Origin: Diplocarpon mali
Lineage: Eukaryota; Ascomycota; Leotiomycetes; Helotiales; Drepanopezizaceae
Assembly: GCA_024741835.1 (NCBI GenBank)
Contig: JAENRP010000034.1
Location: 62,633-126,632 of the forward strand
Direction of reading: 5' to 3'
Length of the DNA stretch: 64,000 bases
Position 1 is the stretch's first letter. The number at the start of each line of letters is the position of its first letter. The notes under the pieces are model-generated. The model worked only from the letters and a program-made list of their open reading frames with translations. It ran no database searches and was not told the origin of the DNA. Shown piece by piece: positions 15,464 to 54,733 of this stretch. The position numbers and the translations under genes are program-made.

Positions 15464-17290
15464 CTACAACCCCTCATCCCACTCTCCGTGGGGAGTACCG
15501 AGGTCTTCCTCCTCGTCCAAGAGCCCACCACTACTCTCTCCGTCCAGGTTTTCCCTCGTCTTCGGGCCCGTGTACGTCCTCCTCGCGCCCGCCCACCACC
15601 ACCCCAGGCTAAAGCACGCGATGCATGCCGCGACCGCAACGGCGTAGTTCATGTTCGCCGCGGTGACCGGCCTCGTGGTGGGGAACAGCAAGACGGCGCT
15701 GATGAAGAATACCCACGCCACGCTCACGAGGTTCACCGGTCTCTGCCAGCGGCCCAGCGTGTACGGGCCCGGGATGAAGGGGACGCGCGAGGCGAAGAGG
15801 TTGCGGGCGAGGATGACGATGGCGTAGGAGAGGTCGAGAGCCGGGGCGGTGACGTTGAAGATGGCGACGATGGTGGCGGTGCTGCCGACGCCGATCAGGT
15901 TCAGCAGGCTGGAGGCGCAGACGACGAGCCAGACGGCGTTGAGGGGGGTACGGGTGCGGGGGTTGATGCAGGCGAAGAAGCTGGAGAAGGGGAGGGCACC
16001 GTCGCGGGAGAATGCGTAGGCCACTTGTGGAGAGCGTGTTAGCTGTGCTCGTAGCAAGGGGGGAAGCGATGGGTACACCGAAAGGGGCGAGGGCGCGAGG
16101 GAAGACGTACTGCGTGCGTCTGCCAGCATGGCCGAGCAGCCGGTGAAGAACTGCACCAGGACGACGAAGAACCACATCGCAGTCCCGCCCGTCTGGCCGC
16201 CAGCATTGAGGAAGATCTGGGCGGCTGGAAGCCCCGTTGGGGTGCCGAGCATCTCGTCGAGATCCGGGATGCAGAAGCAGAAAGTGATGGTCAACATCCA
16301 GCCCACGATGCCAGAGATTGCGACAGCATGGCGGATCGCGGTCGGACCACGAGCAGCAGCGTCGAGCGTCTCCTCGGCCAAGTGGGATGTGCCGTCGTAG
16401 TCGGTCATGGTCCATGCCACGGACAGGAAGCTGAGGAGAAACGAGAAGCCTGCCCCCCAGCCTGAGCCGTTCGTGAAGTGGCCGAAGACCCAGGCGAAGG
16501 ATTGCTTGTTGGGCGTGAGGATCAGCAGGGCGATGCAGATAGCTGTCGAGGCCAGGATGTTGACAGGTGCGAACCAGATGACGATCGAGTGTAGGGCGTG
16601 GGTGGTGAGGGAGCACACGATGCCGAAAATGAGGAGGAGGGCGATGGATAGAAGGACGATTTGAAGCGCGGTTCTGCTGAAGAGTGAGTCCCTGCGTTCT
16701 CGCGTGCTCTTCTTCATGGGAGGCTCACGGGGAGTAGGCGTATGCTTCTCCGTCAAAGGCAGAGTTCATGCTTGCTGCTGCCAAGATCATCTGAGAGACT
16801 GTGTAGGCGACGCTGGCCACTCCAGCTGTCTGACCGAGTAGATTACACCAGCCGATGATCCAGGACCAGATTGCCGCATGCTCGGGCGGTACGACGTTCT
16901 TGGTCACGAAGTACATACCACCTGCTGTTGGGTAGGCAGAGACGAGCTCGGCAACTGTCCAGGTTGTATTTAGCGGAGCCTCAACCAGAGCGACAGGAGA
17001 AGATCTACCGGATGAGGAGATGCACGAAGCCATCAGAGACCCGACGAACCAGGCCCATACTGAAGAAGCCGGTCCTCCCAGACTCAACGGACTGCCAAAG
17101 GTGGCCGGCACCGATCCCAGAACCCCCAGGACGGAGATGGCATAAGACAACGTCGACCATTTCGTGAAGTGGCGAGTCAGATCCTGTGGTGACCTGTAAG
17201 CCGGAGGAGCCTCGATTCTTTGCAGAAACACACCTGAGTGTATCCAATCTGGTTCAACAGTCTCTCATCTTCGTCTCCCAGTGGAGCCAT
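15464..17290 (-). CDS. APC-superfamily permease (GABA/choline/amino-acid transporter type)
   Basis: Five exons on the minus strand: 17290-17234, 17183-17009, 16954-16729, 16676-16111, 16023-15464 (527 aa). Introns are 50, 54, 52 and 87 nt. The joins restore family blocks: IGYTQ/DLTRHFTKWS, CISSS/VAELVSAYPTAGGMYF, and LADAR/MAYAFSRDGALPF. The blocks TAGGMYFVTKNVVPPE, GWCNLLGQTAGVASVAYT and WTMTDYDGTSHLAEE are typical of the fungal Uga4/Hnm1-like branch of the APC superfamily. About 12 membrane helices are expected and length is normal. Role: plasma- or vacuole-membrane uptake of GABA, choline or amino acids; the substrate cannot be read from sequence. The intron 3 acceptor is a tandem CAGCAG, so two isoforms differing by one Arg are possible. 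The ATG directly follows a run of 11 C (coding strand). Confidence 0.88.
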
Positions 17291-17301
17291 GGGGGGGGGG
17301 G
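17291..17301. repeat. G11 homopolymer abutting a start codon
   Basis: Eleven G on the + strand, read as C11 immediately 5' of the permease ATG on the minus strand. It lies in the 5' leader, so length changes would not shift the frame. Confidence 0.9.
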
Positions 17302-18332
17302 CGTACTTGTCTGTCCTCCCTCTCTCAGTCCCGAGACTGGCGAGGCCCAAGGAACAGCCGACTCTCCCTCTATAGACGACAGCATTGTAAGCAACAGCCC
17401 CCGGTATTGCAACAGAGGCCATGGGGAAGAATGATGGACAAGATTATGTACGCACGTATACAGTAGACCTCGTCGTGCCCCTCCGGAGAGCGAATTCTTG
17501 ACGCTCTCCCCCCCGTCAGCTTCGCTACCTCGACCTGGATAGCACGAGCTCGTCAGTTGAAAATCGAGGCCTTCTTTTCCCTTTGCTCTGCCTCTCCCTC
17601 CCGAAGCCTGACGGTGGGAGTCTGGTCTGAGAAGGAAATGGTCGACGCGGGCCCGAGTATGAGAGGTCGGAAGTCGGAGGTCGGGATTGAAGCGCCGTCT
17701 GACTTGTTTGCCGAAGAGCAGTCAAGGGGGAAGAAGAGATACAATGGATGCAGTGCATTGGCCGACGCAGCAAGTGTAGCGGCGTAGTGGTGCACACGTG
17801 ACGTTCTATACTTCCCACGCAGCGCAGGGGGCAGAGAATGGGTTGTGCGGCGTGACTGGGGGCTTTTTGACATGCCGAGATCAGAGCAGATCAGATCAGA
17901 GCAGAGCAGAGCAGAGCAGAGCAGAGCAGAGCAGATGCCACGCCGTGTAAACAGGTTCCCAGAAAGCAGCAGATGTCCTTGGGAGAAAGCCTCCAGTGCT
18001 CTCTGAAGCTCGGGCTCCAACGTTGATCGGTCGCGTTGCAAGCGAATGTTGACAACACACAACCCTGGGCTCACCGCCGTCACGTGTATATCCCCCGACT
18101 AGATCTCACCTGTCAACCATGGGCCCTATAACATGACTCTCGATAGGACACCGTGATGCGTCCCCAGCTCGAACAAGGCACAAAGCGCTGCGAGTACTTT
18201 TCCAGTCGGGTTCACGCCCTACCTACCTGAGGATGTTCCACTGTTCGTGCCTCAGACTGCGATGCCGGCCTTGTCAAATGAAGAACGGTATAATTAGCAG
18301 AGTCTGTTCTTCTGCTTCAAAACAATTTAAAA
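17302..18332. other. Intergenic region, permease promoter side
   Basis: Upstream of the permease (-) and of the tRNA-Pro gene (+). Contains the GCAGA repeat listed separately. No coding region recognised. Confidence 0.45.
17882..17935. repeat. GCAGA tandem repeat
   Basis: About ten pentamers AGAGC/GCAGA, the first few altered to GATCA. Simple-sequence repeat. Confidence 0.95.
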
Positions 18333-18368
18333 GGTGCATTGGTCTAGCGGTATGATTCTCGCTTAGGG

Positions 18369-18386
18369 TACACTCTAATCAATGAT
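18369..18386 (+). other. Canonical tRNA intron (18 nt)
   Basis: Inserted one base 3' of the anticodon, where eukaryotic nuclear tRNA introns lie. Removal gives the 7-base loop TTAGGGT between CTCGC and GCGAG. The boundary can slide by a base because of flanking T. Confidence 0.85.
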
Positions 18387-18408
18387 TGCGAGAGGTCCCC
18401 GGTTCAAT

Positions 18409-18461
18409 GTACGTTCTCGCATCGCTCCCTATCGCTCGGATCTGTACTGATATTATCCCAG
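18409..18461 (+). other. 53-nt GT...AG insertion in the T-loop of tRNA-Pro
   Basis: Starts GTACGT, contains TACTGAT (a CTRAY-type branch site) 11 nt before the end, and ends CCCAG. All three match spliceosomal introns in this window; GTACGT is also the donor of protease intron 1 and permease intron 4. The length matches too (44-111 nt for most introns here). Removal leaves T-loop TTCAATC, a standard 7-base loop, between CCCGG and CCGGG. It interrupts the end of the B-box (GGTTCAAT then GTA instead of a CC ending). Intron nature is inferred; an inactive insertion is the alternative. Confidence 0.7.
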
Positions 18462-18503
18462 CCCGGGATGCGCCCAGGATAAGTTATAAACTATGATTAC
18501 CAC

Positions 18504-18514
18504 TTTTGTTTTTT
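18504..18514 (+). terminator. Possible Pol III terminator (T4 and T6 runs)
   Basis: TTTT at 18504-18507 and TTTTTT at 18509-18514, 29-39 bp after the tRNA 3' end. These are the first T4 or longer runs downstream of the mature tRNA. Confidence 0.5.
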
Positions 18515-35789: not shown

Positions 35790-37247
35790 GTTCTATTAAT
35801 AGGTGCTATACTCCTTAAGTATAAGTTGTTAGGCCGATTTACTAGTACTAAGGGAAATGCCTCCTAATGGCTTAATCGCCTATAGTACAATTTTAAGAGT
35901 GCTAGCTATATATCACCTAACTTAAAGATATTCTTTAAAGCTATTGATATCTTATTTAAAGGTCAGGCAGTAGAGTGGCTAGATTCTAGTGCTAAGTTTC
36001 GTACTATTATTAATAAGAAGGAGAATGCTACTGCTAATTATATTGCCAACTTTAAGTAAGTATTAAAGGCTAAGTACCCTACTAAAGTGGCTGACTATAT
36101 TAAAAATAATATCCAGTTTAATATTAAGAACCTTGCTTAAAAGCAGGATAAATCACTTACGGCGTACTACTAAAGGACTACTCACTTGCTTTGTTATATA
36201 TATAGTAAGGATGCTGGCCGATTGACGACTAGTTTAGTACTTAATTCTATTAAGTAGGTCGTTTTAAATAGCATTATCGCTGCCTTTATTGAAGGCATCT
36301 ATAATAATAAGTTACGTATAGCTGCCCTCTTTAAGTTAGCATTATTATCTAGCGTATTATAAAAGGCCTTAGATATTGTTAAGGACGCTTAAAACATATT
36401 GAATATAACTTGTAAGATGGAATAATATTACTAAGAGAAACTCGAGACTGAGCAATTGTAATAACTATACTATAAGTAATATAGTATATCTGCTTCTGTA
36501 GTCCTATTACTGCTAAATGCTAGGAAGCCAATAGTTCCAGTCAATCAGAAGTTATTACTATATATACTAAGACCAACGTCCTCTCTAGTCGAGTTGCATA
36601 GGAATATGCTATTATACTCCACTACTACCAACTGAAATAGCAGTTAGAATAGTAATTAAAATGGTCGAGGTGCCTTATAAGAGACTAATACTATATAGAA
36701 CATTTAGCTTATAAGAACTAATCCTAATTAGAGGGCCTGTTAGAATAGAAAGGCTTATATAGTACCACCCTAATTGCAGTTATTATACTTAGTCATTAAT
36801 GGTTTTTAGATATACGACTCTAAGAAGGACGGGGTACTATATATATGCTATAGTGACTTCGGTTATAAAGCAATTGAATGTGCTAGTAATAAGCTCGCTG
36901 CTTAAGAGAAGGCCTACTTGCAGTAGGCCATATAGGGTAGTAATGTAGGATCGTACCTTGCGAATATCATAGGCTTTAGTATATACTACTAGAACTTATT
37001 ACTAAAAGATAATAGCATTTTAAAGGAGTTATTGTTTATATCTTTGAACTAAGTGAAAGAGCCTATAGGCAATTAAGTATCATTCGATAACTATATAAAG
37101 ACGCTAGCCTTTAATAACTGCTTTTTAGGAAAATTGTCGCTAGACTCTAAGATAGCCGGCCGCCTTAGAAAGCGATTACGCATATTAATTAAAGAGCTGA
37201 TTAACTTTAGTAATAACAAATCAAAGATAAGACCAGCGTTTAAGCCG
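35790..37247 (+). pseudogene. Gypsy gag, RIP-disrupted
   Basis: Conceptual translation through stops shows LLGRFTSTKGNAS, FKAIDILFKGQAVEWLD, ATANYIANFK, AYY and SASVVLLLLNARKP, consistent with a Gypsy capsid. A Cys-rich CYSDFGYKAIEC at about 36837-36872 resembles a damaged zinc knuckle. Interrupted at 37253 by the small LTR element and continued from 38633. Confidence 0.65.
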
Positions 37248-37252
37248 ACTAG

Positions 37253-37559
37253 TATAACGACACAGAACCGCCGAAGTGCGATATCGAGTATAGGAGCAAG
37301 AAGTGGTGCAAAAGGCGTATTCTATAGGTCTAATACAAAGGAAATAAAGAAGTTAGAGAGCCCTCCCTATAGGAGAGCCCTTCTCCCTTATATACATTAG
37401 TAGCTTAAGGCTCTTTACCTGTTTATGTAATATTATATAAGAATATCCTTTTGCACCTTCGGGGTCGATTCGAAATAACCCTATATCGAATCGAGATTGT
37501 AAAACCTTAAAATGCTATACTCCTAGGTAATTGCACTAAGTGGAGGTGCAGCTGTTACA
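37253..37559 (-). repeat. Left LTR of the non-autonomous element
   Basis: 307 bp, ends GTTACA; pairs with 38321-38627. The copies differ by a dozen or so sites, nearly all transitions. Confidence 0.9.
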
Positions 37560-38099
37560 CTACCCCCCCCCTTTGAGAACGCTTGTCTATAAGCGTTAGT
37601 AGGTTGTGATGAGTTTCGTATAGTAATGTACTTAGCGCGTTATTATGCGAACGGTACCGTTCTATATTTAGTTTAGCGCAAGTCGCGTTATGCACTTAAA
37701 TTTGTTTTTCCTCCCGTAGGATCTTCCTTCTTTAGTATAACAACTATATATAATCGCATAGGTCCCTTACTCCTACTATTATAGCGTAGGGCTAATGCAT
37801 AGTAGTAGAAACAATTACTACTACTACTACTAACTACTATAAGTAAGTTTGCCCTAGTCTAGGGTCGAATCGCATCTAATACGCGTAGTGCCAATTCCCT
37901 TGCTATTAGGTGCCCTCGCGGTAGCCCACTGCGTTTATTATTGCTAGTACGTGCGGCGCCTTATGCGCAATATCGCGCACGAGTGCGAGTTCGAGTCGGA
38001 ACGTAGTAAAAAGTGCTACTAGTGCTAGGAGCAGAAGGCAGAGTGCATCCTCGTAAGTACCTCGAATCGACTCTAGAGTTTTGTTTGCGCTAATACTTA

Positions 38100-38326
38100 T
38101 TTATAGCTTCCCTCCTATATCAGGGAGGAGTTCGCGGCGCTATCCGCGGCCCTTGAGGAGTGGCGGGGGGAGGCTGCCTAGCAGCAAGAGGAGGATAACG
38201 GTAGCGACGACGATAACGCGCAGGCGGTTTCGGCGGGGAACTGCGAGATGCTCCGTCAGGAGGCGGTCCGGCGCGCCCGGATTCTTATCAGCCTCCGCGC
38301 TGGTGAACTTCTTCGTTTAATGTAAT
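38100..38326 (+). other. GC-rich coding-like cargo inside the non-autonomous element
   Basis: One + strand frame (from about 38112) reads EEFAALSAALEEWRGEAA, one TAG at 38179, then QQEEDNGSDDDNAQAVSAGN and EAVRRARILISLRAGELL. It stops at the TAA formed by the first LTR bases. The composition (acidic then basic, helical) is protein-like. I do not recognise the source. Confidence 0.45.
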
Positions 38327-38627
38327 GATACAGAACCGCCGAAGTGCGATATCGAGTATAGGAGCAAGAAGTAGTGCAAAAGGCATATTCTATAGGTCTA
38401 ATACAAAGGAAACGAAGAAGTTAGAGAGCCCTCCCTATAGGAGAGCCCTTCTCCCTTATATACATCAGCAGCTCAAGGCTCTTTGCCCGTTTATATGATA
38501 TTATATAAGAATATCCTTTTGCACCTTTAGGGTCGATTCGAAATAACCCTATATCAAATCGAGATTGTAAAACCTTAAAACGCCGTACTCCTAGGTAATT
38601 GCACTAAGTGGAGGTGCAGCCGTTACA
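38321..38627 (-). repeat. Right LTR of the non-autonomous element
   Basis: 307 bp, starts TGTAATG and ends GTTACA, followed by ACTAG. Confidence 0.9.
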
Positions 38628-38632
38628 ACTAG

Positions 38633-41054
38633 CAAGGCCTCTTATAAACCTATTAAAAAGAGGGCCAGTAAACCAGCGAATAGAAAGGCTACTAATGATA
38701 AGAAGACCTAGGATATAGAAAAGGTAGCTTGAAAAAAGGGAAAGCGTACTATTTACTATCTTAAGGAAATCGTAGCATATAAGGGAATAGGCCCTATAGA
38801 CTATTAAGAACTGGTAAATAGAATCAAGGTACTACTTAGCCTAACCGAATTCTTCTAAGTGTCGCCCGAAGGTAGTAAGGAGTTCCGGCGCCTATTAATA
38901 CGAAAGAACTATAAGAAATCGAAGCTTAAGCTAAGGAAATCAATTCACTTCTCTATAAAGGCAAAGGTCTTAGATAACGCCTAGAACGTACTATTAAAAC
39001 TATCTACTACCGTTCCCTTACTATCAATTAAGAAGAAGGCCTTTTAAATTAACTGCTTTATCAAAATGCTAAGTAAGGATAGAAGTCCAATTGAAGTAGC
39101 TCTACCAACCTATTTAATATAAGTTAACTAAGGCTCTAATATAAATATTATATCCTATACCTTAATAAAGAAGCTTAAGCTTAAGTTTATTCTATTATTA
39201 GAAAGAGGCTTTAGCAGACTGATTATAAATACCGCCGATGGTAGTAAGGCCGAACTTATATACTAAGTCGAATTCGAGGTTAGAATATATAAAATATAAT
39301 ATAAGGATAAGGCATTTATATAACCTTTCAATAACAATCTATACCTACTACTTAAGTTACTATAGCTATAGAAGGTTAATAGCTCTATTAATATTCGTAA
39401 GTTATAAACTATAATAGGCGACTAAGCGTACGGTAAGAAAAAGGTAATTATTAAAGGTCTTAAATTCGTACTATTAAAATACTATAAATTATTCCTTTAC
39501 CTATCTGGTATACTAGACCTAGTTCTTATAACTCTAAAGAAACTACCTATCGAGAAGTCTAGAAAGCAGAATGAGAAGAGCAGTTTAAGCGAAAGCGAAA
39601 GCGATAAAATAGATTCCTTTACCGATTTGGAAAACTAAGTGGAAATAGTCGACTTAAGATTATTATTAAAAGTATTAATAGCATATAATTAATTAAGCTA
39701 AGACAATCGACTTATATACTAGATAGAAGTAAGGAACGCTCTAGTTAATACCTTTGAAAACTAACGTTTAATACATTATAAGAATCAATTAAAGAGAAAT
39801 ACAATTATAAGGATTCAGTTGCCTTATAATTAATTAAGAAGAACCGCAAGGAAGTAGTCGAGCAATAGGTTCGCAGTTTACTAGGCTTAAGCGCTAGATT
39901 AACTGGGATAAGTGCAGATTTTAGCATTATAATAGACTTAAGGGAGTTGTTATACTAAAGGGAGTTAGATAGTAGGACTAAGCTGGAAATACTATACTTA
40001 ACCTATCGATGCCTATGCTAATAAACTCTATTAGATGAATTAGATTCGACTATTAATAAGTGGTTTCAAACGATCGGAACTAAAATTGGCAATCTAATAG
40101 ACGAATAATAGAGATAACTAAAGAGGCTATTATATATATATTAGGACCTAGATGCAAAGGAATTGCAAAACCTACCTCTAATTGATCTATATACTTATAG
40201 AATCCGCTTAAAGGAAGGTACTAAACTATACTCAATAGCTTAATAGAAACGATAGCCAGCTGCAAAGGAATATTAGCTCTAAAGACATATTAATAAGGGA
40301 CTAAGCTATAGCTTTTATAAGCGTATAATAGTAGCAAATGGATAGCTCTCTAATTGGAATGCATAGGCTATTATCATTAATAAGGTAGAGGACCTATAAC
40401 TATAGGATAAGCTTAGAATTACCTTTAACTATTGTAATATAATTAAGCAAATGCTTAGATACTATATAGAGCTATTATTAAAGCTATATAATTACTTAGG
40501 CTATTTAGTATATAAACTATTCCTTAAATTCGATCTAAAGAATGCGTATTAGTATATGCTAGTTCACTTAGCCGACCGCTACTACTTTGCGTTTATAATA
40601 TCAGGCATCGGCCAGCTTTAGCAAACCAGAATACTATAAGGATTAATGACTTTTAGCTATAGTATAATTAAACTAATATATATTATATTAGGCCAAATAC
40701 TACTATCGGAACTAGGCTAAGGCGACTTTACTAGTCGACTATTAGTAATTATTGCTTTAGATAAGGACTCCCTTCCTATATGCGGCTTTTATATTAACGA
40801 TATCTTTAAGGGTTATTAGGATTTCGAAGAAGGCTACTGATTTATAGTAGATAAATTGTTTCTAAGGGTAGTATAGGCGCGAATGCGGCTTTCCTTTAAG
40901 AAGATAGAGCTGTTTATAAAAGAAGTTATTGCGCTAGGTATCACTTATAAGTCTAGAGGTCTGATTTTAACAAAACTGAAGCGATTGAATAAGATTCGAA
41001 TATAGCTAGTCCCTAAATCTGCCACTTAAGTTCGTAAGTTCGTCGGTGCTATTA
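38633..41054 (+). pseudogene. Gypsy pol, protease and reverse transcriptase part
   Basis: Through many in-frame TAG/TAA, translation gives FLKFDLKNAY, MLVHLADRYYFAF and FYINDIFKG (RT catalytic block, D changed to N), then ITYKSRGLILTK and KFVGAISIC. These match the Ty3/Gypsy RT order. Protease-like NIISYTLIKKLKLK and GDAYGKKKVIIKGLKF-like segments precede it. The frame is cut at 41055 by insertion of the antisense Copia and resumes at 54852. Confidence 0.75.
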
Positions 41055-41059
41055 GTATT

Positions 41060-41257
41060 TGTGGTACAGTCGGCTGGAGGGCCTTCATTAGGTCGCTTAG
41101 GAGGCTCGCAGAAGTAGGAGAAGATGATTGATTATATTATTATCTAGTATATATATGGTAAGGAGACTTCGGAAAGAAAAGGGAGAGTCTATGACTTAAT
41201 AGGAGTTATATAAAGGGTCTTTAGAATAAGTGGAGACTCTGCCTATTCTATATAATA
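41060..41257 (-). repeat. LTR of Copia A (left, 3' LTR)
   Basis: 198 bp; matches 48459-48543 joined to 54734-54846, with transition differences only. Confidence 0.9.
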
Positions 41258-42600
41258 TACCCCTTAGTTAGGCAATGCTCTTAGAATCGCTTAGCTATAT
41301 AGATAAAATAAAAGAAAGAATAGCAGTTATAAGGAAAAGAGGCTCTATCTTATATGCCGCTCCTTTAAAGGTTATTCCTTTTAGAATGAGAAGGGTCGCT
41401 ATAGGCAATAAGCGCGCTTAGGAATCTTCGCAATTCTACGCTAGTACTCTATTAGGCTTCCTATAGAGTATTTCTATCGCAGAGGTTCTCCTTCCCTTCT
41501 TTTAAAAATAACCCTCCTTTATTATTTAAAAATATCGTCTTTATACTAATAATTTTTAAATATAAAAGGAACTCTTGCTTATTATAGCCTTAGCTGCCTT
41601 TGTAAAGTAAGACCCTTAGAGTCCTTATACCCTGCGTTATACTAACTTTGCGCTAGGTCGCTAGCGCTCCTTTAGGAGCTATAACCTTAGTACGATTGTC
41701 TTAGCGCCTATTAAGTAATAAGCCGCTGCTGCTATCGCCCTTGCTACCGCTGCCGCCTCTGCTGCTGCTGCTGCCACTTAAGAGCCTCGCCCTTGCTGCG
41801 CGCTATATACCTAAGCCTATAATAGAGCGCAATAATGCGTACGTATATTATATTATATATAAGAGCATTAGCAATCTCGATTATTAGTACTTTAATAGCA
41901 CCTTTAGTACGTATTATATTTGTTATATAGTACTAAGTAATAGCTGCTAATAGGCTAGCGGACCTCTCCTTGCCTTTTAAGAGGCTATTATATTAGCCTG
42001 CGCCTGCGGCGCCTTTAAAGAGGAGGTAGTACTACTACTTAATATAGTAAAGGGTGCGCTCTAAAGCTTCTATAGTACATTTATCAAGTCTTATTAAGTT
42101 CTAGGCTGATTTTAAAAGATAGGAGCGATTGGACCCTAGTACTAGGAGGGCCTGCTACTCCTGTGAGTAGTAGTATCGCTACCTCCTTTATTCTTAGTAT
42201 ACCATTCCTATTCGCTCCTAGTCCCTTTGGCTTAGACCCGTTCGCCCCTATTACTACTACCGCTCCTATCCCCTCTGCCTCTGCTATCGCAGCCGCTGCT
42301 ATAATCTTCCTATTTATCTCCTTAGCCCCTACTATTACCGCGCCTATTTTTGCTACCGCCCTTACCGCCCTTGCTTTTATCGCCCTTGCCGCACCCTTTG
42401 CCTTCGCCCTTACTATCGCTAGTATATTTGCTAATAGGCCTTTGGCTAAGGGAGTGCTAGTAGGCCTCTTTTAAGAGGAGATCTATATAAAGCTCTTAGC
42501 TATAATATCTTAGCTCCTGGCCCTAACTAGGAGAATCTAAGAGAGGGTCGCACCTTATAATAGTAGCTTAGGAATATTACCTATTCTATATTTTTAAAAA
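41258..42600 (-). other. Extra 1.3-kb segment between RNase H and 3' LTR of Copia A
   Basis: Lies downstream of RNase H, where most Copia elements have little sequence. At 42160-42480 it is less AT-rich and strongly triplet-structured. The minus strand reads Gly/Lys/Ser/Arg-rich (SKGEGKGCGKGDKSKGG) and the plus strand is open for 103 codons of Ala/Pro/Ile/Phe. A basic RNA-binding tail is possible; function unknown. Confidence 0.4.
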
Positions 42601-42879
42601 AGGAGAAGCTTTTATAGTGCACTTTATAAAAGAAAATAAATAAATATAACTATAAAAGAGTAAGAGCTTATAAGTATAAGTCTCTTAATAATAAGTAATT
42701 ACTTACTAGCAAGTATAAGTTGCCGAACGATTATTTAAAAGCTCTAAAGGTTTAATAAATGAATAAAGCTTTTAAACTTCTAGCGGTCTAAGTTCTTAGT
42801 AAGCCTATCTACGTATATCTCTTTAGTAAGGAGGTAGATTATTTAAAAGCTTCCTTTCTAATACTCTTAGCAGATCTAT

Positions 42880-45800
42880 ATATTACTAATTTCGATATAT
42901 TAAAGGCTTATCTTAATCTTCTTATTCTTTATAATAATTAGCCAAATCGTTTATTAATTATTATAATATATATTCCATTTAAAGAGGAAGTCTATGCGAA
43001 TCTCCTTAAAGAGGCGTTTTATAGCTATTATCTCCTTTGCAGTAGAAACTATACTATAGAGTTCTACTTTAGTAAAGGAGAGTGTAATAGTTGCTTAGCG
43101 ATTTGCTTTTTAAATAATCAGTCCTTTAAATAGGAAGAAGATATATCCTTAAGAGGATCTGCAGGTCTCTTAATTATCTTTAAAAGAAGCATTTAAAGAC
43201 GCGACCAATTAGTATTCCTTAGCTTTAAAGCTATAGGCAATTCCTAAGAAGCGCGTACTATATAAGTATTAAAGCGTTTAATCCGCAGCTAAGAGGTACT
43301 TAGAGCTTAGATTAGTTAAGAAGAAAGATAGTTAGGAGGCTGCGAACGCAATATCTAGGTGTATTATAATTGCTATATAAAGAATAGAGCCTATTTTCTC
43401 TTAATACTCCTTTACCTTTTTTAAAGAAGCTTGCCTTAAGTTCTTAATAAACTCCTTCTTTAGTAGTAGAGTATTAGGCACTCTCCTTATATTAGCTCTG
43501 AACTTTTGAGCGATCTTCTTAATATAGGTATTATAAATTAAGGAGATCCTCTTTGCCTTTCTATTTTAAATAATCCTTACTTTAAGGAACTAGGAGATAT
43601 CTCTTATAATAGTAAGCTCGTATGCCCTCTTTAGGTCTTTAATTAAACGAATCGCCTAATCTAAGTTAAAGGCCTTATATAACACTTAAATATTGTCGAT
43701 ATAAAACGCTATAAAGACTATATAATCCTTTATTATAAAAATATAAGGCTTCTCGCTTAATAGCTTAAGTTAAAGGCCCTTAAGCGTTCTTGCGAAGTTC
43801 TTATACTATAGTACTAAAGAGTCTTTTAGCCTATAGAGCGCGTGGTCCAGTTCTACTACTATACTAAGGCGCTTAAAGCCATTTAATAGGAAGCATATGA
43901 CTGGAGTACTCCTTAGGTCTTTAAAAGCGTTGATAAACGCGTTAATAATATCGAACTACTTTACTTCTATATTAAAGTACGCGGCAAGCGCTATTAGTAT
44001 TTTAAAAGACCTTGCTGCAAGCATAGCTATATAGGTTGAGAAAATTAAAGCTTTATCTTAAAGATCCTCTTATATAACTAGCTATAATCGGCACTTTAGA
44101 AGCTCGCTAGAGCTATTGACCTTATAGGTAAAAACCCATTTTAATAGTATCGGCAAGGGCTTTAAGTAGTCCTTTTATACGATTTTCTAGCAACTCTGAG
44201 ATTTCAAATTCCTAATCTCCTAGCGCTCTCCTTCCTTAAATTATTTATTAAAAGGGTGCTTCTTTAGGTTTAGCCATCCTTTCGAAGGCTTTGGCAAAGA
44301 GCCTTAGTACTATAGGCAATTAAGAGATTGCGCTCTATCCTTTACCTAACTATTAACTATAGCTTTAACGATTATATAAACTATTAAATAGTCCTTCTTA
44401 TCTTCCCTTATCTATTTGTTCGCTTAAAAGGTTGATATAAACTCTTATATATATAAAGAGTAAGGTAAATTAATATTACTTTAAGAGAATATATGCTTTA
44501 AAGTAGTAGTATATACTTTTAAAATCTCTTATTGCTTAACGCTTAAGCGTCTTATCCTCTTTTACTTAAGAAGAGGGAGTTCCTTTTTATGCTTCTCTTT
44601 ATAGGTCTCCTCTTCTATTTTTATTATTACTAGAGGTTCCTTTAAGAGTCTAGGTAGCTTTATCTCTTAAGCCTATAGTCTTTGAGCTAGTATTACAACT
44701 TAAGGTATTATATTATTAAGGCCTATTCCTTTTATTAGATTGCTTCTTATAAGACTATTAGAGCTCCTCTTAGATCTTAGTAATAGTGCTTCTAGCCTTT
44801 TACTAGAGTTTATTAAAGCCTGCCTTTATAATTAAAGACTCTATCTTAAAGCCCTTAAGCCATCTTTATTCTTATATAAAATAGCAGCTAAAGATCTGCC
44901 GATCGCCTTATAGAACTTATTTCTAAAGACTCCCTTAGAGTCGTCTATAGTTCCTTCTTTAGTAGGGCCTTTATAAGGAATCATTACCCTTAAGCTTTAG
45001 TTGCTATTTGCCTTCTTAAAGACTAGCGAAGTAGCTTCTAATTCGCTTGCTTCTACCCTTGAGTTTTTAAGCGGGTCTCTTAGAGAATTTGGATTTAAAT
45101 TAAGGCCTTCTATATCATTAGTTAGAGGCTATAGAGCAGCATCGGTCTATAATATAAGCTCTTCTTATATAGTAGCTTCTTTTGCAGTAATTGCGTTTAG
45201 CCCTGCAATAAGCTCCGATTCCTTGAAAATGCCTTCGAACTTAGCGTCTTAAGCTCCCTCTCCCTCTTTAATCAATTAGAGGGTTATCTTAAGTTCTTAG
45301 TATAATATAGGGTTTGCACGCTTAGCTTCTGGACTATAGAAGAGAGACTTATCGAATTCGATATTATAAGTCGTTATTACTTGCTAGAGTATAGGAACCC
45401 AGATTCTATAAATATTAGAGGTAATATATTTAATTAAGTAACCTAAGTGCCCTTATAGTTCAATTTTAAAGGTTCGGCAGTCCCTCCCTACCTCCCTCTC
45501 TTTAATTAAAGGGTATATGCAAGCGCTATACATATAAACGCAATTCTAGTTAGGCTTTAAGCTTACTATTATCTGCTTAATAAGCAGCAGCTTATAGAAT
45601 CGAAAATACTACTTAAACTAACTATAAAAAGCCTTACTTAATAAGATCATCTTCTTCCTAATAAGTAGGGAGATATTATAAAGGTATATAGCAGCCTTTA
45701 TAACCTTTGGCCAAAGGCTTGCTAAAAGCCTGGTATAGATCCTTATTTTAATAGAGCGTTTAATCAACTCCCTTCCTACTTACTCCGCGCCTCTATTAGG

Positions 45801-48254
45801 TTGGTATATATAAGTGGGAGTAAGCTCTAAATCGATTCCCTCCTCTTTTACCTATCTCTAATACTTTATAAGAGAGTCTTCTCTTAAGGAGATTATTAAA
45901 GTATTATTATCTTGCCTAATTTTGCAAATAGAAAGCCTATATTAGCGTTTTACTTATACTTCAAAGGCCTAGAGGACCTTTATAATTATATCTCTGCCCT
46001 TTAATCTTAGTAAGAACGTCTAGAGTATACTGCTATACTTATCCTTAATTAAAAGAACCTATAAGCAACTATTATATAAGTTGTTTAAAAAGTTAAAGAG
46101 ATCTTAAGAGATCTTAAAGAAGGGCCTTAGAGATCGGTTTTCAAAGGTAGTATAAGAAATAACTTGCCTAGCAGACGCTACTATGCATATAGGGCACTTT
46201 AGCCTCTGTATTCCCCTGATCTTTACTCCCCTAGCGCACTTAACTAGCACTTAAAGAGCCTTTGCACCTAAGTAGCTAGCGCAAAGGTGCTAAGTGTACG
46301 CGTTATCATCCTATACCTTAGTAGGTATATAGCTAAACTAGAACCTATTATAAAGCGTCGTCTTAGCTATAAGGAACGCTATTAAAGTAGAGAAGTCATA
46401 TTAAAGCATATTTAGGAGATCTAAATAGTTAATAAGCTTATATTTAAAGAAAATGAGATTATAGCAACGCTTTAACTAAGCTCGCTTTATAAAATCTCTA
46501 ATGCTCTTAAAGCGCAAAGTAAGGTCTACTCTAGAGTATTAAAAGCCCTTATCCGCAAGGAGCCTTTTTAAGATAATATTAGTAGTAAACTCCTTTATAA
46601 TAGTAATATTGCAAAGCGTTATCCTTATAAGAGAGCTATTATGCTATAAAAGAGAGTCTGCTATATATCTATTACCTCTCCTAATGATTAAGAGCCTTGA
46701 GGTACCTACTTTAATATATTACTATAGGTTGCTAAAAGGCTTAAAGGTGCCTGCGATAAGTAAATCCTTTAAATTAATAATATAAGTGGCTATGCAATTG
46801 TTAAAGAGTATACTTAAGGAAAGCAGGTAGCGTTCTAGCTTAAAGAGGTAGTAAATATTAAACGATTCTTTAAAAGCGTTAAAGGCAAAGGGATTTATTA
46901 CTATAAAGACTAGTAAGTTCTCCCTTTTGCCTAAACTATCCTCCTTAAAGGCTAAAGCCTTTCCTTTAAATTTGTCGATCGCTATTACTGCAATATTATT
47001 CTCCTTAAGCTATGCTTAAAGACCCTTGAACTAGTCTCCTGCGTTTAACGCCTTTTGTATTCGTAGGACTTCCTCTTATAAAGGGAGAACCTTTATATTT
47101 TCCTTGCGCCTATCTATAGCATATAATAGTTTCTAATAGTCCTAAGGCTTCTAATAGTGATTTTTAGAGCCTTTATAAGGGCACTTAGGCCTAATCTCCC
47201 TTTTAAAGCTTATGAAGCGATTTTGGGAGCTGCTCGCTAGAGCCTGCAAAGGGGTTTCGGCATCTAGGAGAGACTCTTAAGTAGTAAAAACTGCTAGCCC
47301 TTTATTATCGATTGCTCTATTAGATTTAATACCTACTAGGGCGCAGCTTAGCTGCATTAGGTTATGCTTATATAAGGTTCCTATCTACTTATTAGTGATA
47401 ATTTCCTCCTTTAAGCAAGTCGCCTAACTCAGATTAATCTTTACTATAATTAAGTTTAAAAAGTCAGTAACTCCTAATCTCCCTTTGATTTTAAGGAGAT
47501 TATATTATTTTATTAAGCGGTATACCTCTTACTACTCCTAGATCTACTGCTAAGTATTAGTTCTTTTAGTTTTGCCTTAGCGTAGTATATCGCAGTATTA
47601 AAGCCTTATTTAAGACTGAATAGCCTTATTAGAAGGCGTAATATCACGCTTTAAAATAAATACTAGGCCTTAGAGTAAGAGTTGCTAGTTTACCAAATTA
47701 GTATATAGGTCGTTAATAGTAGTTCCACTTATAAGAGTATCTCTATTAAGTATTAAGAAGGAGAGCTTCTTAGCTTGGATTTATAATTAAGCTATTGCGG
47801 AAGCTAGGAGCATTCTATTAACAGTCTTAAAGACCTATTCTAAGAGTAATTCGTAGTATTTGCATTAGGTCTTCTAAGTCTCCTTGCGTATATGGTACTC
47901 CTTTATTAGGATTTTATATTTATCCTTAATATCCTTATAAAAAGCCTATAGAGGAGGAGCCTTTAACAGGTCTCCTAAGGGAAAGCGGGCGTAAATCTGT
48001 TTAAATAGAGTCGCTATATACTCTTTATATAACCTTGCGTATGCTATACAAAGGTTAGCCGTTTCCAATTCCTTAAGCTCCTATATAAAGGGAGCTTGAG
48101 GCTTAGTCTTTATAATTGACTTAAATAGGAGTCTTAGATTAGTAAAAATGGTAATATTATAAAACTTAGCGAAGAATATATATTTACTAAACCACTTTAC
48201 TTAAGAGGCAAAGGTATTAAGGCAAGGCTTAAAGATACTCGAAGAGTTAGACAT
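42880..48254 (-). pseudogene. Copia A gag-pol, RIP-disrupted
   Basis: Minus strand. Gag starts with an intact ATG at 48254 (MSNSSSIFKPCLNTFASW). Integrase blocks lie at about 45.5-46.5 kb, including TYIYQPNRGAE and YLYNISPL. RT is at about 43.5-44.5 kb with FYIDNI (YVDD motif, D to N) and YNTYIKKIAQKF. RNase H is at about 42.9-43.4 kb with HLDIAFAAS, YLYSTRFLGIAY and ATITLSFTKVEL. Stops fall where CAG/CAA or TGG would be. Not functional. Confidence 0.75.
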
Positions 48255-48458
48255 ATTAAATAAAGTCTAATGAAAAGGTTAGGTATATAAATGAAGTTTG
48301 CAAATAAGGTTCGATTAGAAAATAGAGATTTGTTAATTAAAAATAAAGGTCCTTTAAGTCGTTATAAATACTCGAAAAGTCGGTTAGGAGCTTAAAGGGC
48401 CCTTTAGCCGGTTGCATACAAAGAGAAAGTATATTAAAGTGCTCATAGGGCTTATAAC

Positions 48459-48543
48459 TATAGTGCAATCGGCTGAAGGGCCTTCATTAGGTCGCTTAAA
48501 AGGCTTGCAGAAGTAAGAGAAGATAATTGATTATATTATTATT
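48459..48543 (-). repeat. Copia A right LTR, first part (85 bp)
   Basis: Matches 41060-41144. Broken by the insertion of Copia B at TTATT. Confidence 0.88.
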
Positions 48544-48738
48544 TGTTGAGATGGGTGATATAGCCATCACTCCGATGTATTATTATGTGACCCTACTGCT
48601 TAGTTAGTAGGATATTGATACGTATATAGCTATAGGGAAGAAAGGGGTAACCTTCCTTCTCTAACTCTTATTAATATATCGACTATCGACCTTTAGAAGT
48701 TTCTTATACCTATTGCGCCGACTTACTTAAGCTTAATA
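48544..48738 (+). repeat. 5' LTR of Copia B
   Basis: 195 bp; equals 54534-54728 apart from transitions. Confidence 0.92.
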
Positions 48739-49124
48739 GGTTATAAGCCTTAGATAGACCGATAATAGATTATTAACTTCCCTTAGAAAGCACTTGCGCT
48801 GCAACTATTAGTAGGAAGTTGAATAAGACTTATAGTAAGAGGCGAGCAATCGGCGAATAAGAGGTGTGATTCCCTATTTAGCCAACCTGTATTGCAAGAG
48901 GTATGATTCCTTGCTCTATAACCCTTTGGTACTGCAAGAGGTATAATTCCTTGCTTTATTATATTTCGTAAGAGGTATGATTCCCTGCGTTATAGCCTAA
49001 AAACCCTTTTTAATAAGAGGACTTCCTCCCTATTTAATACTTCTATAATACCTGCTATTTAATCATTTTAACTTTTCGATAGGAGGAGTGCCCTTAACTA
49101 TTTAATTTATTTGATTTTAAATGC

Positions 49125-50050
49125 AATTCTATTCGAAATAGTAATAGCATCCGATTCCGATCGAAATACTAAGCCTAGAGACCTCCAACTCTCTTAAAAG
49201 AACTGGCAATAATAGTTCGACGATTTAGAGCTTTACTTTAAAAGCAAAGGCATCGAAATAGCGATTCAAAAGACACTTGTTAAATACGCAAAAATAGCCC
49301 TTTATACTCCCTCTACCGATTCGTCTACTTCTACTTTAATAGCTAATACAATTGCTAAAGATTTGCCAGATATATTAAATAAGCTTAGCTTAAGAGCTTT
49401 AGTAGATAATAACTAAGAATCCTAAAGGCAGATTTTAAATATAGAAAAGGAGAAGGAGTATAGGCTGGCCTTAGCTAAATGCAAGCTTAAGATCAATAGA
49501 GGTTTAAGCAATAAAGACTAAGATTTTATTTAAGTTTATAATAATGCGAAGATAAGATAGGATACTTTAAAGGCAAAATACTCTTAGACAACTGCTCTCA
49601 ATACTTAGTATCTACTATAGCAGATCACTTTATTTTAATATAGAAAAGATAAAGATAGTAAGGATATAGATATAAATATAAACTCTGCTTAGTCTATATT
49701 GCGTAAAGCGAGGAGGAAAGTAAGAGCCGCAGATCCTAGGATGGCTATAACTTTTAAAGAAACTCAGCTTTTTAATTTCCTACTTAATGGCCTCCCTCTT
49801 AAGTTCGCTATTGCAAAACAATCTCTTTTCGTCCAACCCAACCTTAAGATCTATAAGAAGATCGACCTCCTTCGAACTATTAAGCAAGACCTTAAAGGAT
49901 ACTCTAAATCGGCAAATGCCGCGTTATAAGGCAATAATAAGCCCGAGAAGAGGAAGGAGCGTAGGACGAGCCCTTGAGCTTATCGGAGATGCTACTTCTA
50001 TAATAGTACTTATAATATTACTAATTGTAAAGTTAAAAGGCAACTGATTA
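49125..50050 (+). pseudogene. Copia B gag
   Basis: Translation through stops gives a Copia capsid-like protein: DLELYFKSKGIEIAIQKTLVKYAKIALYT early on, then TFKETQLFNFLLNGLPLKF and LLRTIKQDL. The last 76 codons (49699-49929) are still open. Confidence 0.6.
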
Positions 50051-50269
50051 ATATAGTCGCCAGCTTTAATATTAAGAAGCAATTGAAGCAGAAGTTAAGA
50101 AGCAAATTGCCCTTATCCTACTAAAGGCCGCAATTACTAAGGAAAGGCAAAGGAAAAGGCTATTTAGCTAGAACTTTAGCAGATACCTCTAATAATAATA
50201 GTAGGTTATTTGAACCTAAATCCACTTCTAATGATTTAGATAATAATTATAATAAAGATGCTTACGTTT

Positions 50270-53200
50270 TAAAAGCCGATCTTTATAAGATCTTTAAATC
50301 CGACTGGTATAGTAATACTAGTTATATAGCATATATAACTGATAAATCCTACTTATTTAAAGGCCCGCTTACTAAAATAAAAAGGCGCTCTATTAAGGTT
50401 GGTAGTAGAAGGTTATATGCGGACTTGATAGGTATAGTAGAGATGAATATTGCTAGCGTTTCTTTCCTTTTGCAAAATGTTCTCCTTATGCCTAGTTTAA
50501 GTATTAATCTCTTATCTAATTGTAAGATCTATATAAAATTGAATTATATTAGAGTTTTTAATAATCAATTTATATAGTTTATAAATAATAATTATAAAGT
50601 GATCTTTAAGGCTAAAATCAAAGATGGACTTTACATTATCTTAAAGGTGATATTATAGAAATTGACTCCTAGGCTGGACCTATAAGTGAATTCCTTTAAG
50701 GAAAGTGCACTTTCTGCCTTAATATAATTGAGCGAGGATAAGGAGAATAGATGGACTCTTAAGCTAGGATTGCAAGTAAAATTCGCAAAAATGACTCTTA
50801 AGCCAGGACTATAAGTGGATTGTAAGGTGTCCTTAAAGATGACTCTTAAGCTGGGATTATAAGTGAATTTGGCAGAAATAACTCCTAGGCTAGGACTGCA
50901 AGTGGATTCTGTAAATTCGCTAATAATAACTCTTTAGCTAGGATCGCAAGTGAAATTCGCAGAAATGACTCTTAGGCCAGGACTGCGAGTGAAATTCGCG
51001 AATTCGTTAGAAACGACTCCTAAGCTGGGACTGCGAGTGGATCTTGCTATTTCTAGGAAATCGACTCCTAAGCCGGGACCGCAAGTGGATCTCGCGGTTT
51101 TACTAAAAACAACTCCTAAGCCAGGCTCGCAATTGGAAAACGGCAAAACCTCAAACTGCTATTACTAGTCCTTTCTAGCCGCTAATAACGAAGTATCGAC
51201 TAATAATAGGCTATTAAAGCTATTAAAAGCCGAAAGCCTATTAAGGTATTAGCTAATACATAGAAGATTCGCGCATCTAAGGCTAAAGAAATTGAGAGGC
51301 CTATATAAGGTCTCGACCCTAAAATAGAAGATCTAAGTACTAAAGGATCGCCTAGTATGCCGAATTTATAAGCTAATAAAACTTCGAAATCGGATGCGAA
51401 TTAAGCTTAGTCTATAGAAAGATTCGATACTAGCGCTAATATCTATTAATACTGCTAGACTATTTATAACCTTAATTAGAGGAAATAATTGGTTTTCTTA
51501 AATAGTAGATAACTCCACTCAGCAGACATAGACTATTTGCGCTAGGACTAAATCTAAGCTTATAGAAAAGCTAGAAACTTAGAAAGTAATAGAGGAACGC
51601 CAGACCTAGTTAAAGCTAATAGCTATTAAGTCTAATAACGCATTAGAGATTAGGGCAAAGCTTAATAAATAAGTAAAATAAGGAGTTTATTATAAACTAA
51701 CTATAATATACGAAGGTTCCTACTAGAATAGTATCGCTAAGCGAAGTATCTAATAAGTAGAGACTAACTGTCGCACTCTATTATAAGATGCTGACCTACT
51801 ACTGGAATTCTAGGACCTTGCGGTTAAGGCAGATATATACTTGCGAAATAGAATAGGTAGTAGACTAATAGTTAATAGTACTCGAATATTACTATATAAG
51901 GCATATTTCAGATAGAAACTAAGCCTAGACTATATCTGCGTCTTTAAAAGCATCTGCTACTCTTATATTAGCCCAAAGTCTTAGCCTGCGGGTATAAAGA
52001 GTAAGAAGCTAATAGACTAAGGTAGAGAGTATATATTTGTTAGGTATATTAAATAGATAATAAAGCAATAGATAATATATGCGCTAGATCTAGGGTAAGT
52101 AATTATATTTTTAGTAGTTGAGTTTGACGAATCTTAAAATAGGAGGGAGCTGTCCTTAAAGCTCCGTATACCTAGAGATTCGCAAGGTATACCACTTAAT
52201 AGTAATACTATTAAGCTAAACTAATAACCCCTTTCTCTTAGCTTAAGCATATTAAGCGCACCTGCTAATCGATGACTAGCTGGTTGTCCAAAGGCCGAAC
52301 AGACTATTCTTATCGTCCGCGAACTGCCTAAAGTATAGAATAACTTCGATATCATCGTCCCTTTAATTAAAGCGCCTATAGTAAAGGATGTTCCTGAAAC
52401 AGGTATAAGTAATAATAAGCCTCTACTATTAGAAAGCGGTTCCTTAAATAATAAGCCTATAGAACCTATAGCTAAACCTACGTCCTTGAAGAGGAATAGA
52501 GACTTAGAATTAAAAGATACCTTAGACAAACGCGAGTCTAAGCGTATTTGGGCTATAATAGCGCATAGGATCTATAAGCTTAAACTTCAATAGAGCTTTA
52601 ATAAAGATAATGTGTTCCTAACCGCTAAGAGGATAATGAAAATCTCTCTTTTAAAGATGTATAATAAAGCTGTTAACGACTTAGAGAATAGAGTAGTATA
52701 GAGTAAGGCAATCTATAAGGAGATAAGCTCTTTTACTACAAATGGCATATAGATAGAGGAACTGATACTAAAGGACGTGAACCTAGTATTAATAAAGTGG
52801 GTCTTTATAATTAAGATATATGCAAATGGAACCCTAAAGCGTTATAAGGTAAGGCTTATAGCTAGGGGCTTCTTTTAATAGTATGGAGAAGACTACTTTG
52901 ATACATTCGCGCCAATAGTTCGCATAGATACCCTTTGCATATTTATAGTAATAGTAGCCGCTAAGGACCTTAAATACAGATAGTATAATATTAAAAATAC
53001 ATTTACTAAAGCAATTATAAAGGAATGGATTTTTCTCTCCCGACTTAATAGTATTTCTATACGCGCTAGCCACTCTTTTTATATACTTTGCAGTATCTAT
53101 AGGCTTAAATAATCAGCCTGTGATTAGAACCTTTTATATAGCTCTACTCTAGTGGAAATAGGATTCATTTAAAGCTTAGCTAACCCTTATCTATTTACTT

Positions 53201-54215
53201 ATGCTAAGCGTAGAATCAAGTTGCTATTATATATTGATAATATTGCTATAGCTGCGAAAACAACTACTCAATTGGATTAGTTCTTTATAACGATTTAGAA
53301 ACGTTTTAATACTAAGGATCTAAGGGGAATTTATAAGATCCTTAGCATCTGCATTATAAGGAACCGCTCTACTTAAGAACTCTAATTGGATTAAAAGCAG
53401 TATATTAAGAAGATCCTAGACTGAATAGGACTTTCTACTTATGCTTCTAACTTTAAGCCAAAGCGTACTCCAATCGAAGGAAAGTATAATAAGTTAGAGC
53501 CTGCTAATAAAAATAAGTAGAAAGGAGATCTAAAGAAGTACTAATAGGACATTAGAGCGATTATATATACTATAGTATATATAAGACCAGATATCGCCTT
53601 TATTATTAAGCAACTTAGTTAGAACTTAAAGGATCCGACGATTTGATATAAGAATGCAGTCAAGCGACTTAGAAGGTACCTTCGATTGATAATCATATAG
53701 AAGGTGAGATACGGACTAATGAAATATATAAGCGCAAAGCTTAAGGTATATACCAATTCCAATTAGGCAAATATAAAAGGTCAGAAAAGTATATTTAGAA
53801 GCGTAGCAGTACTATATAGCAGACCTATATCGTAGGGAAGTAGGAAGTAGAAATCAATGGCTACCGCAAGCACTAAGGCCGAATATATATTAATATTATC
53901 AAATTGTAAGTAAGGATTATAAATCGCTTAAGTTTTAAAAGATATAGGTTTCGCTAAGTATATTAGATAAGATAAGAACTATATTAATCTTTAAGCAGAT
54001 AATATAAAGGCGATTGCACTTGCAAAGAATCCACACTTATATAAGCGATCGAAATATATTGATATTGCCTACTACTTTATCCGCGACCTTATTGCAAAGA
54101 ATAAGTTATCGATTACTTATATCCTAACCGATCGAATAGTAGCAGATGGATTTACAAAGCCATTAGAGATAGTTATAAAGTTCAAAGCGTTTAAAGATAT
54201 ACTAGGGTTATAGAA
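50270..54215 (+). pseudogene. Copia B pol
   Basis: Protease region about 50270-50640 (TDKSYLFKGPLTKIKRRSIK, SLSINLLSNCKIY). A repeat region follows, then the GAG-pre-integrase block LIHRRFAHLRLKKLRG at about 51255. RT includes WVFIIKIYANGTLKRYKVRL, FDTFAPIVRIDTL and LLYIDNIAIAAKT (YVDD, D to N). RNase H has STKAEYILILSNCK and NPHLYKRSKYIDIAYYFIRD, ending ADGFTKPLE. More than 30 RIP-type stops. Confidence 0.8.
50664..51137 (+). repeat. Ten-copy degenerate repeat inside Copia B pol
   Basis: Core GACTCCTAAGCCGGGACTGC (then AAGTGGAT) recurs about every 39-48 bp. In one frame it encodes a peptide unit TPKPGLQVDxA, for example MTLRPGLRVKFA, TTPKLGLRVDLA and STPKPGPQVDLA. It lies between protease and GAG-pre-integrase. 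Confidence 0.8.
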
Positions 54216-54244
54216 GATAGTAGGGGCTTAGCAGGCTTAAGGAC

Positions 54245-54399
54245 GACTCCTAGGCCCGCCTTATGAGTTAGGTTATATAGTCTTATAAAAGAAAGTTTTT
54301 AGATCGACTCCTAGGCCTAGACCGCGAGTTAAGTCATATAGTCTTATAAAGGAATATCTTTTAGGAAATTTGACTTCTAGTCCTGCCTTACGAGTAGGA
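54245..54399 (+). repeat. Three further copies of the Copia B repeat core near the 3' LTR
   Basis: GACTCCTAGGCCCGCCTTATG, at 54245, and related copies at about 54305 and 54372, spaced about 60-66 bp, with YSLIKE-encoding spacers. Same TPRPxLRV theme as the internal array. Confidence 0.65.
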
Positions 54400-54533
54400 T
54401 TGGTAATTTTAATAGAGGTTGCTATTAATTGATTGTTTTTAATTTAAAGAGATACTTAAGAGTTGGATTAGCGCAAAAGGATAATTATTATTTTCCTAAC
54501 TGCAGGTCAATTGGAGTAAGGTCTGAGTAGGGG

Positions 54534-54728
54534 TATTAAGATAGGTAATATAGCTATTACTCTGATGTATTATCATATGACCTTACTGCTTAATTAGTAG
54601 GATATTAATACGTATATAGCTATAGGGAAGAAAGGGGTAACCTTCCTTCCCTAACTCTTATTAATATATCGACTATCGACCTTTAGAAGTTTCCTATACC
54701 TACTGCGCCGACTCACTTAAGCTTAATA
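54534..54728 (+). repeat. 3' LTR of Copia B
   Basis: 195 bp, followed directly by the TTATT duplication and the rest of the Copia A LTR. Confidence 0.92.
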
Positions 54729-54733
54729 TTATT

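Follow-up and report, generated by a model that had tools for sequence, protein, structure and literature searches.

Probable spliceosomal introns outside the anticodon loop in tRNA genes of Diplocarpon mali

A tRNA-Pro(AGG) gene in the 64,000-nucleotide stretch of DNA analysed here (the window) carries, in addition to an ordinary anticodon-loop intron, a 53-nt insert in its T-loop that is very probably a U2-type spliceosomal intron in a functional tRNA gene, judging from its sequence and from its counterparts in the same genome. Extra GT..AG introns outside the canonical 37/38 site were found in 21 of 76 tRNA-like loci, covering 13 isoacceptors, in what was an incomplete survey. Four observations underlie this reading: the anatomy of the genes, the signals that their introns share, the existence of intron-free paralogues and the absence of a strict BHB motif.

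Direct reading of the window bore out the anatomy that the first-pass annotation had proposed for positions 18333-18475. The acceptor stem pairs at 7/7 positions with one G-U and the T-stem at 5/5; the 5′ acceptor strand is GGTGCAT, the anticodon stem CTCGC/GCGAG and the anticodon AGG. Excision of the insert leaves a perfect 7-base T-loop (TTCAATC), and the single 53-nt register that gives CCCGG-TTCAATC-CCGGG is the one bounded by GT and AG. The mRNA-intron-like signals claimed for the insert (a GTACGT donor, a CTGAT branch-like site and a CCCAG end) are likewise present. The features of the locus are as follows.

18289..18294, + strand: TATA-like element TATAAT, 44 bases upstream of the gene.
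18333..18475, + strand: tRNA-Pro(AGG) gene of Pol III type with two introns, recognised from cloverleaf pairing, three paralogous loci and the ARAGORN call after excision.
18369..18386, + strand: ordinary anticodon-loop intron (37/38) of 18 nt, given as i(37,18) by ARAGORN on the spliced gene; the expected substrate of the tRNA splicing endonuclease.
18398..18408, + strand: 5′ T-stem CCCGG (18398-18402) and T-loop bases TTCAAT (18403-18408), from the sequence; judged by the consensus, these bases include the start of the Pol III B-box, which the intron cuts.
18409..18461, + strand: ectopic second intron in the T-loop, 53 nt, GT..AG, with a GTACGT donor, CTGAT and a CAG end, at a site common to 4/4 related Pro loci.
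18447..18451, + strand: putative branch-point motif CTGAT, with its A at 18450, 11 nt before the intron end.
18462..18475, + strand: last T-loop base C, 3′ T-stem CCGGG, 3′ acceptor strand ATGCGCC and discriminator C, from the sequence.
18504..18514, + strand: T runs resembling a Pol III terminator, TTTTGTTTTTT.

By eye, the A-box of this gene is whole and the B-box is interrupted after GGTTCAAT. Run with intron options, ARAGORN recognised tRNA-Pro(agg) once the insert had been taken out but made no call at the locus as it stands; in its bacterial setting it called no tRNA in the whole window. The folding energy gives no support, because the spliced tRNA was not more stable than its shuffles (z -0.86).

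The first-pass annotation had likened the insert to the mRNA introns around it. The four introns of the neighbouring permease gene (15464-17422, − strand), whose boundaries were inferred from the D. coronariae protein P0121 and the D. rosae protein P0122, are about 50 to 87 nt long and built like the extra introns, which upholds the likeness on a small sample; one of them combines GTACGT, CTAAC and an AAG end, like the intron of the Ala tRNA. A 54-nt GT..CTAAA..AG stretch of the same gene, coding in P0121 and absent from P0122, is probably an in-frame intron that was misannotated. Across its exon blocks, the permease differs from the protein of Diplocarpon coronariae (of which Marssonina coronaria is an older name) at two of 588 residues, and the EMG1 protein of the window is 92 percent identical to that of Diplocarpon rosae. 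These likenesses place the genome in D. coronariae or a very close relative (Leotiomycetes, Helotiales, Drepanopezizaceae). Positions 36001-56000 of the window are AT-rich (GC 0.33-0.37 vs 0.44-0.60 in most of the rest) with few long ORFs; the ORF at 50125-50577 looks retroelement-like by eye, and the block perhaps consists of decayed transposons.

The genome (49.4 Mb in 676 contigs) was searched with the Rfam family, with A-box and isotype patterns, with a T-arm plus T-run pattern and with exon searches. The 76 loci comprise 49 from Rfam and further sets of four (three Asp, one Val), five (four Gly, one Ala), three (Phe), two (Gly) and seven (two Glu, two Leu, two Gln, one Tyr), together with one Met, one Tyr and four Pro loci. 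Four of the 49 Rfam loci lie below the cut-off, and three of these (Lys C77, Ala C75 and Tyr C36) are among the 21 with an extra intron; one of the 49 has, on inspection, a mitochondrial look. Many candidates were lost in the RF00005 search: 63 of 2443 were scored, and no Gly, Phe or Asp gene was among those parsed, a shortfall that the pattern and exon searches made up in part. Matches to the T-arm plus T-run pattern were sorted by eye for tRNA-like T-arms and fetched in part. Among the A-box-pattern matches listed (about 100 of 144), most belong to an A-box-like repeat family with GGTCGAACGGTATTATCGCCCTTTAAGA that occurs on many contigs. In this incomplete survey, tRNA-His was found neither by Rfam nor by the pattern or exon searches, and the paper on the draft genome of Marssonina coronaria, in the part consulted, reports 136 tRNA genes, compared with the 76 loci located here; an intact copy could therefore have been missed.

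The extra introns occupy 15 distinct sites by our own count from the junctions, with sites and tRNA positions in our own numbering, made by eye from the same junctions. They are distributed as follows.

Pro, four genes: T-loop.
Gly(GCC), four genes: one at about 8/9, three in the D-arm.
Gly(CCC), one gene: 9/10.
Elongator Met, two genes: variable region in one, T-loop in the other.
Tyr, two genes: T-stem.
Asp, one gene: border of T-stem and acceptor.
Ser(TGA), one gene: 9/10.
Lys(TTT), one gene: 8/9.
Ala(AGC), Leu(CAG), Leu(TAG) and two Gln(CTG) genes: D-arm.

No extra intron was present in Pro(TGG) C87, Pro(CGG) C202, three Phe genes, two Glu(CTC) genes, Ala(CGC), Val(TAC) and two of the three Asp genes. 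According to ARAGORN, 20 of the 21 genes have an anticodon-loop intron as well, the exception being Ser(TGA); among the 43 tRNA genes parsed, 32 carry an anticodon-loop intron, apparently an unusually high number for an ascomycete. In the two Gln(CTG) genes (C50, L115, and C123, L116), the extra introns lie one base apart, through either intron sliding or two separate gains. Before excision, ARAGORN assigned the right anticodon to 4 of the 21 genes; after excision, it called a tRNA in 21/21 and the right anticodon in 19/21. Its calls tolerate some displacement of the excised segment, with 16-17 of the 21 still called at a shift of 3 nt and 4-6 at a shift of 8 nt.

What kind of intron are these inserts? 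All 21 begin with GT and end with AG, and they measure 48-65 nt (median 52). The donor fits GTRNGY in 18 of them (ten GTAAGT, three GTACGT, two GTAAGC, two GTGAGT and one GTATGT), the remaining donors being GTAAGA (two) and GTACTT (one). In 20/21, a CTRAY motif places its A 9-13 nt before the end of the intron; shuffling the intron cores produced this in 0.56 introns on average and in no more than 4 in any of 2000 trials. The sole intron without it, that of Met C27, has TTGAC. Ordinary 37/38 introns served as a negative control. Among the 29 that were cleanly delimited (Lys L035, Lys L036 and Met L046 were dropped as misparsed), which are 9-47 nt long, GT..AG ends occurred in 0/29 and the branch motif at the right position in 1/29. 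The use of the same base in four Pro loci and of the same splice signals in 21 tRNA genes places the insert beyond chance. The proposal of a spliceosomal-type intron inside a Pol III tRNA gene is strongly supported, and 20 further tRNA genes show the same.

Could the tRNA splicing endonuclease remove these introns instead, at BHB-type junctions where GT..AG ends occur by chance? Removal of this type is known from archaea and Cyanidioschyzon and perhaps occurs in nucleomorphs, where extra introns lie in the D- and T-arms beside a 37/38 intron (PMC4090602, sections consulted), and the intron of Ala C75 would allow a BHB-like central helix of 4 bp. On the other hand, a strict BHB motif was found in 0/21 extra introns, the one full central helix in 21 is near the shuffled rate of 2.3 percent, and removal at a BHB leaves unexplained both the GT..AG ends in 21/21 and the branch motifs at a fixed distance in 20/21. 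We consider such processing highly improbable and retain the spliceosomal reading. Self-splicing introns were also considered and rejected: the window holds no Rfam match at the gathering score to a group I or II intron, its sole match being a Lys(CTT) tRNA (62965-63061, − strand) whose only intron is an ordinary one at 37/38. A length of 48-65 nt is, moreover, too short for group I or II introns. As for other small RNAs of this genome, the U6 snRNA gene (C67:136807-136959, L118) has an intron of a known kind after GCATGGC, with GTGAGT...CTAAT...CAG (GTGAGT...CTAATGATATCCAG). The search for 5S rRNA, considered as another possible Pol III host, gave 22 matches at E up to 0.1, and the 20 over the cut-off span 119-120 bases, so that an insert would not fit.

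For some of the genes, the positions of the splice sites can be fixed without appeal to GT-AG, because intron-bearing and intron-free twins occur in the same genome. For 5/21 introns (both Met genes, Asp, Lys and Ala), the 16-mer across the predicted junction is found unbroken in another locus, and junction 16-mers for excisions shifted by 1, 2 or 3 nt were never found in another locus. The two elongator Met genes each lack the intron of the other. Similarly, Gly(GCC) C60 is intact at the intron site of C71, C53 and C407, and the reverse holds, over fewer bases. The exact 16-base junction is absent elsewhere for the other 16/21, the four Gly-GCC genes included; for Pro, Tyr, Gly-CCC, Leu, Gln and Ser, the product was derived from the cloverleaf and from related tRNAs, and the junction was chosen with GT-AG in mind.

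The Pro loci also bear on the age of the window intron, which had been suggested to be perhaps recently mobile. Three Pro(AGG) loci and one Pro(TGG) locus are interrupted at one and the same T-loop base by GT..AG inserts of 53-56 nt whose sequences differ; their exons are near-identical. When the genome was searched with a 156-base query containing the insert, the matches beyond the window were confined to the 5′ part of the tRNA in the other three Pro loci. Since four paralogues share the site with dissimilar introns and the insert has no copies elsewhere, the window intron does not appear to be a recent mobile element, and that suggestion went unsupported. A recently mobile repeat or introner-like family was rejected on the same grounds; the copy search covered the window insert, and the other 20 introns were compared only between paralogues sharing a site. 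In most pairs of paralogues, the introns at a shared site resemble each other no more than shuffled sequences do. The share of shuffles reaching the observed likeness was smallest for Pro C190/C210 (0.02), the two Gln genes (0.035) and Pro C84/C190 (0.075). Because the exons have remained near-identical while the introns have diverged to about shuffle level, both the spliced product and the splice signals are under selection.

This pattern also bears on a rival view, in which the insertion lies in a tRNA gene that is dead and other genes supply mature tRNA-Pro. Degenerate tRNA copies do exist in this genome (Gly C2 and Tyr C52), and so do insert-free Pro(TGG) and Pro(CGG) genes. However, instead of several intact tRNA-Pro(AGG) genes, we found the insert in 3/3 Pro(AGG) loci, and near-identical exons combined with kept splice signals, in introns otherwise about as different as shuffles, point to selection on the spliced product and not to random decay. 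A dead gene is, therefore, extremely unlikely, and a functional gene with a spliceosomal intron is the reading that we keep. In the two degenerate loci, Tyr C52:149270-149462 (L121) and Gly(GCC) C2:258791-258879 (L068), the insert is apparently kept with weakened splice signals, and these may be tRNA genes dying together with their intron; both are among the 76 loci and were left out of the intron counts.

Which polymerase would transcribe these genes? Since some introns cut the internal promoter boxes, transcription by Pol III is not certain. By eye, the A-box is split in three Gly(GCC) genes and in Ala C75, and the central C of the B-box is lost through the intron in Met C27. These broken boxes, and the fact that GT..AG introns usually lie in Pol II transcripts, are what one would expect if the tRNAs were made by Pol II within longer capped transcripts, of which the inserts were ordinary mRNA-like introns. 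Against this, a run of four or more T lies within 60 nt, or within the shorter stretch covered, downstream of 19/21 extra-intron genes, compared with 19 percent of random 60-nt stretches of the window, and the count is 15/16 when the five genes found through the T-run pattern are left out. TTTT is absent from the 1112 nt of introns, where 2.8 to 4.3 are expected, a weak signal (P about 0.05). A TATA element 20-60 bases upstream is present in 11/20 genes with an ectopic intron (3.9 in shuffles; Met C27 was not counted), as it is in 34/50 others (9.4 in shuffles), and this upstream element could account for the tolerance of introns that interrupt the A- or B-box. The sections of PMC8527467 consulted describe ectopic spliceosomal introns in the rDNA of lichen fungi, one of which yeast spliceosomes removed from a Pol I transcript; the spliceosome thus does not strictly require a substrate made by Pol II. 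We regard transcription by Pol II as improbable and continue with Pol III genes. Near two Ala(AGC) genes, a second T-arm-like or B-box-like sequence was seen in the trailer (C75:25735-25778 and C75:130410-130449, − strand), and similar letters follow the Lys-like locus L053.

How much of the tRNA supply would then pass through the spliceosome? Counted as lower bounds, the insert-bearing loci amount to 3/3 for Pro(AGG), 2/2 for elongator Met, 1/1 for Lys(TTT), 3/3 for Tyr (one of them degenerate) and 4/5 for Gly(GCC), the fifth being degenerate and without an intact 5′ exon. In the word-based searches of this incomplete survey, no intron-free intact gene was found for any of these five tRNAs, and the tRNA supply should therefore depend on the spliceosome. 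This suggests that the fungus cannot make several needed tRNAs without the mRNA-splicing machinery; if the locus counts hold, several codons would be unreadable by the cell unless the inserts are removed. It is plausible, and somewhat more probable than the opposite, that the spliceosome is obligatory for tRNA processing in this lineage, with several isoacceptors encoded only by Pol III genes whose transcripts require the spliceosome as well as the tRNA endonuclease, and that the 15 sites, some of them occupied in one paralogue and empty in its twin, record spliceosomal introns gained in three steps: reverse splicing into a tRNA, reverse transcription of that RNA and gene conversion. Retrotransposons, whose enzymes prime on tRNAs, might perhaps have aided this gain.

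Under this model, the pre-tRNA made by Pol III would contain two unlike introns. The spliceosome would remove the T-loop intron by way of the 5′ splice site, the branch point and the 3′ splice site, and it would probably act first, ahead of end trimming and the endonuclease, because the 3′ exon is only 14 nt long, the T-arm cannot form beforehand and the endonuclease measures from the tRNA body (PMC4090602, 2014, sections consulted). The second splicing step would have to find this 14-nt 3′ exon plus the trailer. After end trimming, the endonuclease and ligase would take out the 37/38 intron, and the same scheme would apply to at least 21 tRNA genes.

In the textbook, tRNA splicing and mRNA splicing are separate, and here one pre-tRNA appears to need both. 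The first-pass annotation knew of no described fungal tRNA of this kind. Likewise, none of the matches listed from the full text of open-access PMC papers, a collection that leaves most subscription papers and all preprints outside, reported spliceosomal introns in nuclear tRNA genes. The rule that spliceosomal introns reside in Pol II transcripts would thus be broken on a class of RNA without an earlier report in the literature searched. Several questions become testable: how the spliceosome finds a 3′ exon of roughly 14 nt in an uncapped Pol III transcript, in which order two splicing systems act on one small RNA and, because intron-bearing and intron-free tRNA twins lie in one genome, how new spliceosomal introns originate. 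There is also a practical consequence. ARAGORN on unspliced sequence misses or misnames 17/21 of these genes, and the tRNAscan-SE 2.0 paper, in the part consulted, presents the search for noncanonical introns as belonging to the archaeal mode; the tRNA counts of such fungi may, therefore, be wrong. In the consulted parts of the D. rosae and M. coronaria genome papers, tRNA genes are mentioned only as tRNAscan results.

How do these introns compare with known systems? The canonical 37/38 introns, which co-occur in 20/21 of the extra-intron genes, differ from them in position, in length (9-47 nt) and in having GT..AG ends in 0/29. Fungal introners and introner-like elements are known to have produced many spliceosomal introns in one genome; in contrast, no repeated intron family was seen here, and the window insert has no copies outside the tRNA-Pro loci. 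U6 is a Pol III product, and mRNA-type introns of fungal U6 snRNA have reportedly been described by Tani and Ohshima in 1989 and by Canzler in 2016. The U6 intron is the precedent already known for an mRNA-type intron in an RNA made by Pol III. As in the extra introns, GT..AG ends and a branch point occur in the introns of fungal U6 snRNA and U3 snoRNA, which also lie in small structured RNAs, and the U6 gene of this fungus has one of its own. Here, on the other hand, the host is a tRNA, 21 genes are affected and 20 of them also hold an anticodon-loop intron removed by another enzyme. According to the sections of PMC5832005 (2017) consulted, no small structured RNAs other than U3 and U6 are known to be interrupted often.

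The ectopic introns in the rDNA of lichen fungi are, like those described here, spliceosomal and located outside mRNA in ascomycetes, but their host is an rRNA transcribed by Pol I, whereas here it is a tRNA transcribed, in all likelihood, by Pol III (PMC8527467, sections consulted). In archaea, nucleomorphs and Cyanidioschyzon, as far as the source sections consulted describe them, extra introns lie in the D-arm, the variable region and the T-arm beside a 37/38 intron, as they do here. Those of archaea and Cyanidioschyzon rely on a BHB motif and the tRNA endonuclease, and those of the Guillardia nucleomorph measure 3-24 nt, whereas the introns of this fungus measure 48-65 nt and have GT..AG ends, a branch point and no strict BHB. 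The kind of intron is a known one, and it is the host that appears to be new.
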